From Deltaproteobacteria bacterium (GTDB lineage Bacteria; Desulfobacterota; DSM-4660; Desulfatiglandales; B25-G16), in NCBI GenBank assembly GCA_020351915.1, contig CP070673.1:4986278-5029102 (forward strand): DNA of 42,825 nucleotides, written 5' to 3'. This document shows positions 6,419-40,921 of the stretch, piece by piece. Numbering within the stretch: position 1 is the first letter of the stretch; each line of letters begins with the position of its first letter. The position numbers were made by a program, and so were the translations under genes. The notes under the pieces were generated by a model. That model made no database searches. It saw only the letters and a list, made by a program, of their open reading frames with translations, and was not told where the DNA came from.

Positions 6419-8593
6419 ATGAACATGTTTCTTCAGGGTCAGATTGAAAGAATAACATACGCCAACGATGAAACCGGTTTCACCGTTGCCAAGGTAAGGG
6501 TCCAGGGGCAGCGGGATCTCGTGACTGTGGTTGGAAACCTGATAGCGCCTACGCCTGGTGAAATCATTAAAATGAGCGGCGAGTGGATTAATCATCCCCG
6601 GTACGGTGAGCAGTTTAAAGTCATTCACTACAAATCCCTGGTCCCTGCATCCATTTACGGAATAGAAAGGTATCTTGGCTCTGGTCTCATCAAGGGCATC
6701 GGTCCTATTATGGCCAAGCGAATTGTAGAAAAATTTGGCAAAAAGACCCTCGATGTCATCGAAAACGAGGTCGAGAAACTGGGGGAGGTTGATGGTATTG
6801 GCACAAAGCGAATCGGGATGCTCAGAAAGGCCTGGGAGGAGCAGAAAGAGATCCGAGAGGTTATGATTTTTCTCCAAAGCCATGGGGTCGGTTCAGGCTA
6901 CGCTACGAAGATATTCAAACACTATGGAAACCGGTCAATTAGGGTTGTACAGGAAAATCCGTACCGCCTCGCAACAGACATTTTCGGTATCGGGTTTCTG
7001 ACTGCCGATCGTATTGCAGAGAAACTGGGGTTTCCCAAGGACTCTGGGGTAAGGGCGGAGGCAGGCATTCTCTATGCCCTTTACCAGCTCTCTGATGAAG
7101 GTCATGTCTATTATCCCTACGAATTACTGATTCAGAGGTGTCAGGAGATCCTCGAGGTGCATCGGGAGGTCATTGTCAAGGCACTTGATGTCATCAACTT
7201 TCACCAAATGATTGTCATGGAGGACCTAGGAAAGGAGGAAACCGGAGATTCCAGGAGAAACAACAAGGCCGTTTACCTTGCCAAGTTTCACCTTTCTGAA
7301 ACGAGTATTGTCACCCGGATGAAAACCCTGATAAAGACTCCCAAATTAATTCGGAAGATCGATTCAAATAAAGCCATAGAGTGGGTGCAACGGCAACTTG
7401 CTATCATCCTGGCAAAAAAGCAGGTGGAGGCGATAAGATGCGCAGTTGATAATAAGGTGATGGTCATCACAGGTGGGCCTGGTACCGGTAAAACAACCAT
7501 CATCAGCGCAATTCTTAAGATCTTTTCAAAGCTCGGGGTGAAGATTATGCTCGCTGCCCCCACCGGAAGGGCTGCCAAGCGTATGAACGAAGCTACCGGT
7601 CATGAGGCCAAGACTATTCACCGGATGCTGGAGTACAGCATTCAGAAGGGGCAATTCCTGAGGAATGAGGAAAAACCGCTCGACTGCGATATCTTGATCG
7701 TTGATGAGGCCTCAATGATCGATACCATCCTCATGTACCATCTCCTTAAGGCTATTCCTGCTGCGGCTACCTTTATCCTGGTAGGGGATGTAAATCAACT
7801 ACCCTCAGTTGGGGCTGGAAACGTTCTCCATGATATTATTTCATCTGGTTCAGTGCCAGTGGTGGAATTGAACGAGATCTTTCGCCAGGCCAAGGAAAGC
7901 CTGATTATCGTCAATGCCCATAAGATCAATCACGGCCTGGTTCCATCACTAAAGCCTTCTGGGCCGAAGGATGATTTCTATTTTATTGAGCAGGAAGACC
8001 CGGAAGAGGCGCTTAAAATTATAATTGAGCTTACCATGGAGCGCGTTCCCAGTCGCTTCGGGTTTGATCCTATTGATCACATACAAGTGCTTACCCCAAT
8101 GCATAAGGGCGTTGTGGGGGTTGGGAACCTCAATACGGAATTGCAAAACGCGCTCAACCCAGGGGGAGATGGAGTAATTCGGGGCACCAGAAACTTTCGC
8201 ATGGGCGACAAAGTGATGCAGGTTAGGAATGATTACGACAAAGAAGTCTTCAATGGTGATATTGGGAGGATAACCAGGATAGACACCGAGGACCAGGAGG
8301 TGATTATTTCTTTCGACGGCAGAGATGTACCGTATGGGTATCCGGATCTGGACGAAATAGTATTGGCCTATGCTGTGTCGGTACACAAATCTCAAGGCAG
8401 CGAGTATCCAGCCGTGATTATCCCCGTGTTCACCCAGCACTATGTGCTTCTGCAGCGCAATTTGATTTACACAGCCGTGACCAGAGGCAGGAAATTGGTG
8501 GTGATGATTGGCACCAGGAAAGCTCTGGCAATCGGGGTCAACAATAACAAGACCCAAAAAAGGTATACCTATTTGAGACAAAGGCTGAGCTGA
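6419..8593 (+). CDS. recD2: RecD2-type ATP-dependent 5'-3' DNA helicase
   Basis: 724 residues, typical for RecD2, the stand-alone SF1B helicase found without RecBC. An N-terminal OB-like region (GQIERITYANDETGFTVAKV) is followed by helix-hairpin-helix repeats (GSGLIKGIGPIMAKRIVEKFG and GEVDGIGTKRI). The helicase core has Walker A GGPGTGKTT, Walker B ILIVDEASMID, GDVNQLPSVGAGNVL and the C-terminal VHKSQGSEYPAV and YTAVTRGRK motifs. It likely acts in DNA repair and replication-fork handling. Its stop (TGA) directly abuts the stop of the converging GalT-like gene, the two forming the palindrome TGATCA. Confidence 0.95.
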   Translation: MNMFLQGQIERITYANDETGFTVAKVRVQGQRDLVTVVGNLIAPTPGEIIKMSGEWINHPRYGEQFKVIHYKSLVPASIYGIERYLGSGLIKGIGPIMAKRIVEKFGKKTLDVIENEVEKLGEVDGIGTKRIGMLRKAWEEQKEIREVMIFLQSHGVGSGYATKIFKHYGNRSIRVVQENPYRLATDIFGIGFLTADRIAEKLGFPKDSGVRAEAGILYALYQLSDEGHVYYPYELLIQRCQEILEVHREVIVKALDVINFHQMIVMEDLGKEETGDSRRNNKAVYLAKFHLSETSIVTRMKTLIKTPKLIRKIDSNKAIEWVQRQLAIILAKKQVEAIRCAVDNKVMVITGGPGTGKTTIISAILKIFSKLGVKIMLAAPTGRAAKRMNEATGHEAKTIHRMLEYSIQKGQFLRNEEKPLDCDILIVDEASMIDTILMYHLLKAIPAAATFILVGDVNQLPSVGAGNVLHDIISSGSVPVVELNEIFRQAKESLIIVNAHKINHGLVPSLKPSGPKDDFYFIEQEDPEEALKIIIELTMERVPSRFGFDPIDHIQVLTPMHKGVVGVGNLNTELQNALNPGGDGVIRGTRNFRMGDKVMQVRNDYDKEVFNGDIGRITRIDTEDQEVIISFDGRDVPYGYPDLDEIVLAYAVSVHKSQGSEYPAVIIPVFTQHYVLLQRNLIYTAVTRGRKLVVMIGTRKALAIGVNNNKTQKRYTYLRQRLS

Positions 8594-36000: not shown

Positions 36001-37138
36001 TTAGATCTTTCCAAGTTCTCTCAATAAAACGCAAGAAAGAACCGTAAGTACCCCCAGAAAGAGAACGCCAATCTGGAAATTCCAGGCATCGGCTACTGCA
36101 CCCAAGATCGCTGGGGTGAACCCAAGTCCAACCGCGACCCCGGTGGCCATGTGGTTGCTCCAGTAAAGGTACCTCGTTCGTGTACTGTTGTAAGTTTTGA
36201 GATTGCCACGAGGACAGCCGGAAAGAATCCGGGGGAAAAAGTTGCCTGAAGAATGAGCATTGTCACCAAGAGGGGAAAAGTCTGGGAAACAGCCACGCCA
36301 ATCGTTGAAAGACCTGTAGCTACCAATGAAAAGAGGAGAATCCTTTTGACCCCAAACCGATCCACAAGAAACCCGGCTATGAGTGTCACAAAAAAACCGC
36401 CGATCCGCGAAAAGCCAAAGCCGGTATTGGCCATTTCCAGCTCGATTCCCTTCTCCTTGACGAGAAATAGAGGCATCATATCGTAGAGGCCGAGACTGCT
36501 TGACGCAGCAAAAATCAAGAGGATGGCTATGATCCAGAAATCCCTGCGACGAAGCACCCGTGAGAACCGAACCCGTTTTTCCTCCCGGGGACGAGGGTCT
36601 GGAGAAAGCGCCCAGAAAAAGATACCGACAATTACGCAGGCTGCACTCAGAACGAAAAAAAGGTCCTTCAATAGAAAAAAGGCAGGGCAAGGGCTGTGAA
36701 AAGTGGGATGGAGAGAATGCTAAAAGAGGCAGCCGTTTCATGAAATGCGATGGCCTTTCCCCAGTTTTCACCCCTAAAGATTGTGGTTAAAAGGGGAAGG
36801 GCGCTTGGCACGTATAGACGCGTACCAATCCCGACAAATACGGCAGCAGTTGCAAGTGAAGAAAAGGTTGTGGTGTATCTTAAGGAAAATAGGGCTGTCG
36901 CCAGAATAGCGAACCCTAATGCAATGGAACGTTTGTAGCCAATACGGAAGGATAGCAATCCATCTAAGGCCAAGGTTATGCTATAGCCTATGGACAGAAA
37001 AGAGAATATGCTGCCTGCCAGAGCATGGCTAATGGCGAGCTCATCTTCGATAAGGGGTAGAAGGGGAGAAATAACTGTTCTGCTGGAAAAGTAAACATAC
37101 CACAGACCCCAGAAGAGCAAGAGAAGCAAAGCTTTCAT
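36001..37138 (-). pseudogene. Major facilitator superfamily transporter, frameshifted
   Basis: Three consecutive frames together give a whole MFS protein of about 370 residues with the expected membrane helices. The N-terminal part (36668-37138) starts MKALLLLLFWGLWYVYF and ends after LALPFFY. The middle part lies in a second frame (to about 36150) and includes a transporter loop (DRFGVKRILLF). The end lies in a third frame (HMATGVAVGLGFTPAILG to the stop at 36001). The first shift sits in a run of six T bases, where one more T would restore the frame. The second lies near 36150. Two shifts argue for a decaying gene; a sequencing error could explain the first. Confidence 0.75.
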
Positions 37139-38604: not shown

Positions 38605-39462
38605 TTATTTATGCCCACCTCCGCCACCGTGACCTGAGCCTCCTTCATGGCCAGAGCTACTTGGCCCGCCAATTCCGCCCATACTGCCTGGTCCACTTGT
38701 ACTTGAAGATTCAAGGCTTTCAGCACCTATTCCTTGTTTGATTGCGCTAGAGTACATCCTTGCAAGGTCGGTGGGTGCAGTGGTTCTAGAGCGGGTCATA
38801 AACGAGGTTCTCATTGCTTTCATCTCTTTTGTACTATAACGGTGTTTCAGGGCCTGACAAACAACATCTGCGGCATCCTTGGAGGAGGCACCGAGGCGTG
38901 CCATATCCCTTGCAGCCCTGAACGTCTCTGTGGCAAGTTCAATTGTTTGAGCTTTCCTCATCTGTTGGGCCCTCTGTTGTAACCTCTCCATGATTTCGCC
39001 TACATCGTTATCATTCACACCCGCTGCAAGTCCCTTGGCTATCGCATTCCCGAGACTCCACATCTGGGCTTTCTCCTCTGTGAGTTTTCTAGCTTGCTCA
39101 TAGGCGAAGGCATAGCGAGACCTAACGTTTTCCATTGCTTGCACGATATCCCTGTCCTGCACCTGCTTGGACATTCCTTCATATGCCTTGTTCATGATGG
39201 GTGCTACAGGCAATCCTTTCTCTTGGGCGCTCATTATGATCGCATGCGCTCTCAGGGCATGCTCCTCTCTGAAGTGATGGTTCAGCATGAGCCGGGTCAT
39301 CTTTATGGCATCATCACTTTCTATGCCAGCGCGTATCACCTGTCTGGTACTTACTCTGAGTCGGTCTGTAACCTGATTCGATAGCTCTTCGTCCACCTCA
39401 TCCGCAAATGCCACGGCGGCACCAAATAAGAAGACAAAGGCTACTATGCATATACTTTTCAT
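38605..39462 (-). CDS. Secreted protein with Gly/His-rich tail, ECF-regulon member
   Basis: 285 residues from the ATG at 39460-39462, with AAGGAG upstream. Residues 1-20 are a signal peptide (ICIVAFVFLFGAAVAFA, then cleavage before DEVDEE). The body is helical and rich in Ala, Arg and Met (ELATETFRAARDMARLGASS). The last about 40 residues are low-complexity Gly/Ser, ending in HEGGSGHGGGGGHK, which could bind metal ions. I recognise no family. Its own promoter is the second copy of the ECF-type promoter (39494-39523), so it is the probable main target of the sigma factor encoded upstream. Confidence 0.75.
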   Translation of the reverse strand: MKSICIVAFVFLFGAAVAFADEVDEELSNQVTDRLRVSTRQVIRAGIESDDAIKMTRLMLNHHFREEHALRAHAIIMSAQEKGLPVAPIMNKAYEGMSKQVQDRDIVQAMENVRSRYAFAYEQARKLTEEKAQMWSLGNAIAKGLAAGVNDNDVGEIMERLQQRAQQMRKAQTIELATETFRAARDMARLGASSKDAADVVCQALKHRYSTKEMKAMRTSFMTRSRTTAPTDLARMYSSAIKQGIGAESLESSSTSGPGSMGGIGGPSSSGHEGGSGHGGGGGHK

Positions 39463-39493
39463 GTTCGCTTTCTCCTTTCCTGTTGATTTAATC

Positions 39494-39523
39494 TTATAAC
39501 GTATGATCACTAGAAAGGTTACA
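39494..39523 (-). promoter_or_regulatory. ECF-type promoter, site 2 (before the secreted protein gene)
   Basis: On the minus strand: TGTAACCTTT, 12 bases, CGTTATAA. Both boxes and the distance are identical to those of the site before the sigma gene, while the spacers differ. A start near 39487 would give a leader of about 25 bases with the ribosome site. The -35 box contains the TAA stop codon of the lipoprotein gene. Confidence 0.75.
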
Positions 39524-39845
39524 TGTCTGGCACATATATGCAGCTCTCGGAGCCGAAATCGTCACTTTCCTTGACTCTGCAGTGTGGTAGGTACACAACC
39601 CCGTCCACGATATAGAAATATTTGAATTCCCTGTGTGCTGGAGCTGTGGCTTCCCAAATCCTATCATTGCCATGTTTTGCTTTGTGAAGCTCGTAACGAT
39701 CCAGGGAAGATACAAAGAAGACATCCTTGGCATTGGGCCTTTTGAGATAAATATGAATCGTGTCCTCTTTCACTTTGTAATAATGGCTTGTGCATCCTGA
39801 AAGGATAAGCATGATGGCACCTATGAGTAGGACGTGGGTTTTCAT
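39519..39845 (-). CDS. Small lipoprotein with CBM48/AMPK-like fold
   Basis: 108 residues. The signal peptide ends in the lipobox LSGC (Cys18). The rest is one beta-sandwich-like domain related to the end of the upstream protein: both have an aromatic beta-strand (YFYIVDG here, RFTYILEG there) and finish with a DDFG motif. This suggests an early-set or carbohydrate-binding (CBM48/AMPK) domain exposed at a membrane surface. It begins two bases after the upstream stop and is cotranscribed. Confidence 0.72.
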   Translation of the reverse strand: MKTHVLLIGAIMLILSGCTSHYYKVKEDTIHIYLKRPNAKDVFFVSSLDRYELHKAKHGNDRIWEATAPAHREFKYFYIVDGVVYLPHCRVKESDDFGSESCIYVPDM

Positions 39846-39847
39846 GT

Positions 39848-40411
39848 CTATGACTCGACCAAGATGATTGAATTCTGACCACCGAAATCATCTCGCTCCC
39901 TGGTCGGTACGGTTGGGTCAGCAAATCTCTCCTGACCCTCGAGGATATAAGTGAACCGGTGTTCTCCCTCTGGGAGATTAAGGGTAATCTCCCAGTAGCC
40001 GGTGGAGCCAGTCCTTTTCATAGGGATCTTCTTCCATTCGGTGAAACTACCGGTGATCTCTGCCCTGATCACATCAGGCCGGTAAAAGACGAACCTGTAG
40101 GGGACAGCGGTGTGCACTTGAGAAGGCATGGAAAAGAACAAAATGATAAGCACTCCTGCAACTGCTGAGGCAACCAGGCCCATGGGACGCAAGAGAGGCG
40201 TGAACAGGGAAGAGAAAAAGCCTTTGCTCACTTTTAACTTAACTGGCGGAACATGGTCCACCACTTCCGAGCGGATTACCCTTTCCTGATTCAAAAGCTC
40301 AACGGACTCTTCCTTAAAGGTCTTGTCGGAATGTACCCTTTCAACAAATTCTATCTTGTCGTCGATGCCTAGCTCGTTGTCGATGAACATGCTAATCATA
40401 TCATCCATCAT
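39848..40411 (-). CDS. Membrane anti-sigma factor candidate with periplasmic CBM48-like domain
   Basis: 187 residues. N-terminal about 50 residues (MISMFIDNELGIDDKIEFVERV) resemble the cytoplasmic part of anti-sigma factors. A membrane helix spans about 77-95. The periplasmic part (103-187) is a CBM48/AMPK-like domain with AEITGSFTEWKKIPM, GYWEITLNLPEGEHRFTYILEG and DDFGGQNS. It overlaps the sigma gene by four bases (ATGA) with an AGGAGA ribosome site, as usual for sigma/anti-sigma pairs. The proposed sensing of a glycan through the outer domain is inference. Confidence 0.72.
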   Translation of the reverse strand: MMDDMISMFIDNELGIDDKIEFVERVHSDKTFKEESVELLNQERVIRSEVVDHVPPVKLKVSKGFFSSLFTPLLRPMGLVASAVAGVLIILFFSMPSQVHTAVPYRFVFYRPDVIRAEITGSFTEWKKIPMKRTGSTGYWEITLNLPEGEHRFTYILEGQERFADPTVPTRERDDFGGQNSIILVES

Positions 40412-40884
40412 AATTCTCCTGTTTGGAGGATTTCTTTTAGTTTGCGGCGGGCACGGTGAACCTTTACCTTCACATTGGCCTCGCTTATGCCCGCAATTAA
40501 GGCAATTTTCCGGTAGGTGAACTCCCCAGTTACGACAAGGGCCAGTATATCTCTTTCACTTTTGTCCAGCCTCTGCATGGCCGAAAGGACCCGGCGATAT
40601 TCCTCACGAATCATAAGGACATTTTCCTGATCACGAGAGCAGTCCTCTTGGCCTGCCTCAAACTGGGGGTTGTTCCAGTGTCTTCCTGTATTATCGAAAA
40701 GTGCATTCCGCGCTATGGTGTACAGGAGTGCGGAGCTCTGTGCTTCACGTCCGTAATGCTCCAGGTAGCGTGTGAAACTCTCCTGCATAATATCGCTCGA
40801 TAGGTAGTAGTCCCCTGTCATTCGCATGAGGTATGCGAAGAGCTTGCCCCTTTGTTCCTCGTAGAATGACCCGTATTCATCCAT
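40408..40884 (-). CDS. ECF-type RNA polymerase sigma factor
   Basis: 158 residues from the ATG at 40882-40884. Region 2 lies in SFYEEQRGKLFAYLMRMTGDYYLSSDIMQESFTRYLEH (seen in pieces), region 4 in LDKSERDILALVV and YRKIALIAGISEANVKVKVHRARRKLKE, a helix-turn-helix for the -35 box. There is no region 3 or 1. A GTG at 40902 would lie between the -35 and -10 boxes of the promoter and cannot be the start of a transcript from it. With the ATG, the mRNA would have almost no leader. It likely drives its own operon and the secreted-protein gene. Confidence 0.88.
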   Translation of the reverse strand: MDEYGSFYEEQRGKLFAYLMRMTGDYYLSSDIMQESFTRYLEHYGREAQSSALLYTIARNALFDNTGRHWNNPQFEAGQEDCSRDQENVLMIREEYRRVLSAMQRLDKSERDILALVVTGEFTYRKIALIAGISEANVKVKVHRARRKLKEILQTGEL

Positions 40885-40891
40885 ATCTTTT

Positions 40892-40921
40892 TTATAACGC
40901 ACCGGAAATAAAAAGGTTACA
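40892..40921 (-). promoter_or_regulatory. ECF-type promoter, site 1 (before the sigma gene)
   Basis: On the minus strand: TGTAACCTTT (40912-40921), 12 bases, CGTTATAA (40892-40899). It is identical in boxes and distance to site 2. The expected start, six to eight bases after the -10, falls at about 40884-40886, the position of the sigma gene ATG. Confidence 0.75.

Follow-up and report, generated by a model that had tools for sequence, protein, structure and literature searches.

The window, which is the whole stretch of 42,825 nucleotides that was analysed, contains a cassette of four genes on the minus strand, flanked by two promoter sites, P1 and P2. The genes encode an ECF sigma factor, a putative membrane anti-sigma factor, a lipoprotein and a secreted Gly-tailed protein. 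Their coordinates are summarized in Table 1. On the same strand, a transporter gene of major-facilitator type (36001-37138; family read without a search) appears broken into two reading frames, ORFs 36093-36671 and 36668-37138, as though by a frameshift or by decay.

Table 1. Features of the sigma factor cassette and the evidence for each
Feature	Position	Strand	Evidence or detail
Promoter P1 of the sigma operon	40892..40921	-	-35 TGTAACCTTT 40921-40912, 12-base spacer, -10 CGTTATAA 40899-40892
Predicted 5' leader of the sigma mRNA, 3 nt	40885..40887	-	Predicted +1 = G 40887; register G-11 T-10 T-9 (PMC6411747)
ECF sigma factor, 158 aa	40408..40884	-	Pfam Sigma70_r2 and Sigma70_r4_2; TIGR02937 above cut-off
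Putative anti-sigma factor: cytoplasmic N-terminal part, a single apparent TM span, AMPK1_CBM/CBM48 domain on the periplasmic side	39848..40411	-	Sequence, Pfam
Lipoprotein (LSGC lipobox), stand-alone AMPK/CBM48-like domain	39519..39845	-	hhalign, AF2, Foldseek
Promoter P2 of the target gene	39494..39523	-	TAA of TGTAAC (39521-39519) is the lipoprotein stop codon
Predicted leader of the target mRNA, 27 nt	39463..39489	-	Shine-Dalgarno AGGAAAGGAG 39481-39472; same register as P1
Secreted target protein (285 aa) with a signal peptide, an all-helical body and a C-terminal tail rich in Gly, Ser and His	38605..39462	-	Homologues at 74 of the 81 loci

The sigma factor consists only of the sigma2 and sigma4 regions, which are matched by Pfam Sigma70_r2 (residues 8-65) and Sigma70_r4_2 (residues 97-149), both above cut-off. 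TIGR02937 (sigma70-ECF) also matches above cut-off, and the best NCBIfam subfamily, SigM, stays below its own. The next gene starts within the sigma gene, overlapping its stop by 4 bases, an overlap that is typical across the loci described below. The anti-sigma factor that it encodes holds an ISMFIDDEL motif in its N-terminal part, and its periplasmic domain, which ends in DDFG-x-NS, is recognized by PF16561 (45.1 bits; gathering threshold 26.8), by PF02922 (23.6 bits; threshold 22.4) and by AMPK beta-1 in the PDB (E 1.4e-7). The zinc-type class I motif Hx3Cx2C does not occur in the anti-sigma alignment, and about 44% of class I anti-sigma domains do without it (PMC7406223). Among the Pfam and NCBIfam families listed for the sigma or the anti-sigma factor, there is no match to sigmaI or to the RsgI N-terminal domain.

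The lipoprotein has no match in Pfam. Its profile aligns with that of the anti-sigma factor (hhalign E 1.2e-11), and its predicted structure (AF2, pLDDT 92) is matched by Foldseek to the carbohydrate-binding module of AMPK beta (probability 1.00, E 7e-4 to 2e-3, TM up to 0.8). Judged by profile and model, the lipoprotein appears to be a free-standing copy of the anti-sigma periplasmic domain. A DDFG motif is conserved in both proteins alike, and the lipoprotein carries two invariant cysteines. The residues that we take to be the glycogen contacts of AMPK are only partly kept here, with an invariant W and an invariant N, the other contact positions being lost. The lipoprotein may compete for the ligand of the anti-sigma domain, or may help to present it.

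The gene of the secreted target starts at ATG 39462. The body of its product is predicted with confidence to be an all-helical stack (pLDDT 96), for which a search of solved structures in the PDB returned no match (best E 0.015, TM < 0.4), and an assignment to a Pfam or NCBIfam family was rejected, the only matches being weak and inconsistent. A Gly-rich tail is found in nearly every locus; its histidines are not generally conserved. Where the target gene lacks a promoter, one often precedes the gene of a small secreted GPGDGTG/DGTG-repeat protein, a feature of other loci that the first reading had missed. Such small Gly-rich proteins, with GPGDGTGN-x-GxGP-x-DGTG(Y/N)GPG motifs, are encoded behind this same ECF promoter, often divergently from the sigma gene, in L050, L051, L059, L062, L067, L069, L074, L075, L083, L088, L095, L105, L115 and L117. 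For the four that were tried, no convincing Pfam or NCBIfam family was obtained.

The first-pass annotation had placed two copies of TGTAACCTTT-N12-CGTTATAA, both on the minus strand, exactly where P1 and P2 are found. All 18 box positions and the 12-base spacer are identical between them, as it had also stated. It had further concluded from the differing spacers that the two are no simple duplication, and the numbers agree: the spacers are 33% identical and the 40-base flanks 22% and 32%. Duplication of one promoter was therefore rejected, since identity in spacers and flanks is at chance level. Genome-wide tests were carried out as pattern searches over all 5.09 Mb. When up to two mismatches are allowed, which was the scan that the annotation had proposed, P1 and P2 are the sole two sites, and the looser core TGTAACNNTN13CGTT likewise finds these two alone. 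In 100 dinucleotide shuffles, no match to the motif was obtained with up to three mismatches. It is important to note that P2 is not wholly intergenic, because the TGTAA of its -35 box covers the last codon and the stop of the lipoprotein gene.

The description of the regulon as self-contained holds for this genome, where the searches find only P1 and P2. Some relatives have one additional site, which in most cases is close by and precedes the gene of a small secreted protein and is seldom remote. For example, in G027 (L132, L146) a remote promoter copy precedes the genome's only DUF2202 (PF09968) gene. DUF2202 genes, or matches to the starts of such genes, are also seen close to the cassette in L065, L069, L070, L079, L086, L088 and L124.

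In a search of 60 relatives, the anti-sigma factor was found in the same genus, family and order with the target adjoining, and several of these relatives keep both P1 and P2 with differing spacers. A scan of one genome per species then gave 80 further cassette loci, mostly from Desulfobacterota metagenome genomes, many of them metagenome bins. As the loci were gathered by their anti-sigma protein and have common ancestry, counts over them are not fully independent. The sigma, anti-sigma and lipoprotein profiles match in nearly all 80. Across the phylum, the module is patchy, occurring in 7 of 198 genomes. Carriage by phages or plasmids was considered and rejected, the target having no match in phage records and the anti-sigma factor none in plasmid records. 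The sigma region of L116, on a contig labelled Flavobacteriaceae (bin416), is very like that of the Desulfobacterales bin L081, a likeness due to either misbinning or transfer. In L098, L118, L119 and L124 the cassette is rearranged, with the target and its promoter upstream of the sigma gene; target and promoter, together with the lipoprotein in L098, L118 and L124, seem to move as a unit.

A promoter lies directly 5' of the sigma start in 65 of the 81 loci (64 of the 80 further ones and the window). Its spacer is always 12 bases, though 11 to 13 were allowed in the search. GTAAC and GTT are invariant in these 65 sites, partly by construction, since the regular expression used for counting required both. 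In the other 16 loci P1 is missing at the standard place, and several of these have a site further upstream. A looser weight matrix (PWM), trained on the sigma-side sites only and then run over all 81 loci, gives the same picture, with 150 sites scoring at least 18, against 0.7 in shuffles. At scores of at least 15, the matches beyond the sigma side comprise 48 at the junction of lipoprotein and target, 14 divergent from the sigma gene and 9 downstream of the target; being absent from the training set, these matches provide an independent test. On the target side, the matrix recovers a promoter in most loci. Every locus has one to three sites, with a third in 13 loci and a single one in 14, some of which are on short contigs. 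Of 61 relatives, 12 carry the cassette, and 10 of these have the strict motif, which the 49 others all lack (Fisher p about 7e-10); 15 of its 18 hits sit at the cassette.

For ECF sigma factors, AAC in the -35 box, CGT in the -10 box and positive autoregulation are standard (PMC8103513). Both box elements were found in TGTAACCTTT-N12-CGTTATAA before the factor's own gene in the 65 loci. The proposal of the first-pass annotation, that the sigma factor controls itself and one neighbouring target, is supported by the conservation of the sigma-side site, by the independent target-side sites and by the restriction of the motif to genomes with the cassette.

The distance between P1 and the sigma gene had been missed in the first reading. 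The -10 box ends about 9 bases 5' of the sigma start codon, and the start codon follows CGTTAT by 9 bases in 45 of 65 loci. As its start codon we take ATG 40884 and not the mechanically assigned GTG 40902, located 5' of the base where transcription is predicted to begin; the GTG was rejected because the gap from -10 box to start codon varies across loci (7 to 11 bases in the relatives inspected), and not in steps of three. The register of the -10 element, G-11 T-10 T-9, is known from the structure of the sigmaH open complex (PMC6411747). Once it is applied, the sigma leader is predicted to measure 3 nt in 47 of 64 loci and no more than 7 nt in 63 of them, and in most loci the predicted +1 base is a purine, preceded by a pyrimidine at -1. 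A leader of 3 nt leaves no room for a Shine-Dalgarno site. Such sites precede the sigma gene in 6 of 64 loci, which is the background level (12%), the anti-sigma gene in 44 of 65 and the target in 41 of 53. Since the predicted leader is this short and Shine-Dalgarno sites are only at background, the sigma mRNA from P1 should be nearly or fully leaderless and lack a Shine-Dalgarno site, unlike the anti-sigma gene and the target.

The target promoter is likewise tied to a gene boundary, which the first reading had also missed. In 42 of the 52 promoter-bearing junctions between lipoprotein and target, the window among them, the lipoprotein gene ends in a TAA that doubles as the TAA of TGTAAC, and in the remaining 10 the whole box follows the stop codon at other offsets. 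P2 is not universal, because 25 lipoprotein genes have no promoter directly following. In L103 (about 6448-7412) there are two tandem lipoprotein copies, each with its stop codon inside its own ECF -35 box.

It is very probable that the cassette forms a self-contained, autoregulated circuit of an ECF sigma factor and its anti-sigma factor, reading P1 and P2. The genes, the promoters, their spacing and conservation and the genome-wide exclusivity of the sites are present in the sequence; we infer the reading of P1 and P2 by the sigma factor, the start sites, the bias in translation and the repression by the anti-sigma factor. In such a circuit, the membrane anti-sigma factor would keep the sigma factor inactive until an envelope signal led to release. 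Its periplasmic domain of AMPK/CBM48 type would read this signal, which the lipoprotein version of the domain may share or buffer. Free sigma factor would then activate P1, for the operon of sigma factor, anti-sigma factor and lipoprotein, and P2, for the secreted Gly-tailed helical protein. A (nearly) leaderless sigma mRNA, set against a Shine-Dalgarno-led anti-sigma start that overlaps the sigma stop, would favour the anti-sigma factor over the sigma factor, and the positive loop would stay bounded. We put forward only tentatively, and rather doubt, the fuller picture of promoters fused to gene boundaries (the leader difference acting as a translational brake, the target -35 box fixed in the upstream stop codon), sensing of envelope glycans by twin AMPK-like domains, and a secreted Gly-tailed helical protein of new fold.

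Several other explanations of the two sites have to be weighed against this circuit. TGTAAC is nearly the reverse complement of GTTATA, and some sites also receive a weak PWM score on their reverse strand, so that the boxes might be read as an operator for a dimeric DNA-binding regulator (an imperfect inverted repeat TGTAAC...GTTA[T/C]A) rather than as a sigma promoter. However, only 3 of 65 sites have a C at the position symmetric to the invariant G of TGTAAC, and outside the core one arm reads CCTTT and the other CG. The site is therefore directional, and a palindromic operator was rejected on this asymmetry. The position of the site is moreover fixed relative to the sigma start codon, the motif tracks the presence of the sigma gene, and no other regulator gene is common to the loci inspected, which leaves the operator very improbable. 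Still less credit, close to none, is due to a mechanical repeat, in which the TGTAAC of P2 would be conserved as a Met/Leu codon plus stop and CGTTAT would be coincidence. The stop codon does lie inside the -35 box at most junctions, but CCTTT and CGTT, in non-coding DNA, are conserved at exact spacing while the spacers diverge; the 10 junctions with the whole box after the stop also count against it, as do the loci where the box is found somewhere else altogether, either divergent from the sigma gene or after the target.

A larger regulon, of which the two sites would be just the strongest members, with weaker promoters or promoters of shifted spacing elsewhere, deserves more consideration, though we regard it as unlikely. 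The genome has six sites with three mismatches, one relative has the remote site before its only DUF2202 gene, and some loci have a third site. On the other side, this genome holds no further core site, and the number of sites stays between one and three in every locus.

With the sigma-controlled circuit as the preferred reading, sequence alone gives the promoter, the target and the size of the regulon for a sigma/anti-sigma module that occurs in sediment and sulfate-reducing bacteria and appears to be undescribed. The module yields sharp predictions, with start sites given to the base, and the secreted target families now have a defined candidate switch. If the sigma message is indeed near-leaderless, it would be a conserved case in which leader length may set the ratio of sigma to anti-sigma factor, with a bearing on runaway of the loop. 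A literature search, whose reach did not extend to the main ECF classification, found no AMPK-type anti-sigma factors, and the module might already be a numbered group of the 2021 ECF classification. What is new here is the architecture and the proposed bias towards the anti-sigma factor, from a leaderless sigma message next to a Shine-Dalgarno-led anti-sigma start; the boxes, the domains, the neighbouring putative anti-sigma factor and the predicted autoregulation are standard for ECF systems.

Among known systems, RpoE-RseA and SigW-RsiW (group IV sigma70) likewise have a sigma factor of sigma2 and sigma4 only, promoters of AAC/CGTT type, an overlapping anti-sigma gene next to the sigma gene (putative here) and positive autoregulation, which is predicted for the present module. 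Unlike them, the present module has a two-promoter regulon in this genome, a sigma start about 9 nt after the -10 box, a target -35 box that uses the stop codon of the preceding gene, and an AMPK/CBM48-type anti-sigma domain with a lipoprotein paralogue. SigI/RsgI of Clostridium thermocellum (PMC12203970) resembles it in the membrane anti-sigma factor with an outside domain; several RsgI proteins have a carbohydrate-binding module there. Here, in contrast, the sigma factor is a two-domain ECF factor and not sigmaI, the domain is CBM48/AMPK-like (with glycan binding putative), the target is no cellulosome part and the host is Gram-negative. SigAb of Acinetobacter (PMC12153292) also has a very small direct regulon that includes its own gene, and a further likeness is that the anti-sigma role falls to other genes of its operon; it differs in its boxes, in its targets (relA and the sRNA SabS) and in lineage, whereas the target here is a conserved secreted protein. 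Finally, the carbohydrate-binding module of AMPK beta (PF16561, CBM48) shares fold and sequence with the anti-sigma periplasmic domain, and, by prediction, its fold with the lipoprotein, from which it is set apart by the conserved DDFG motif of the bacterial domains and the two invariant cysteines of the lipoprotein.
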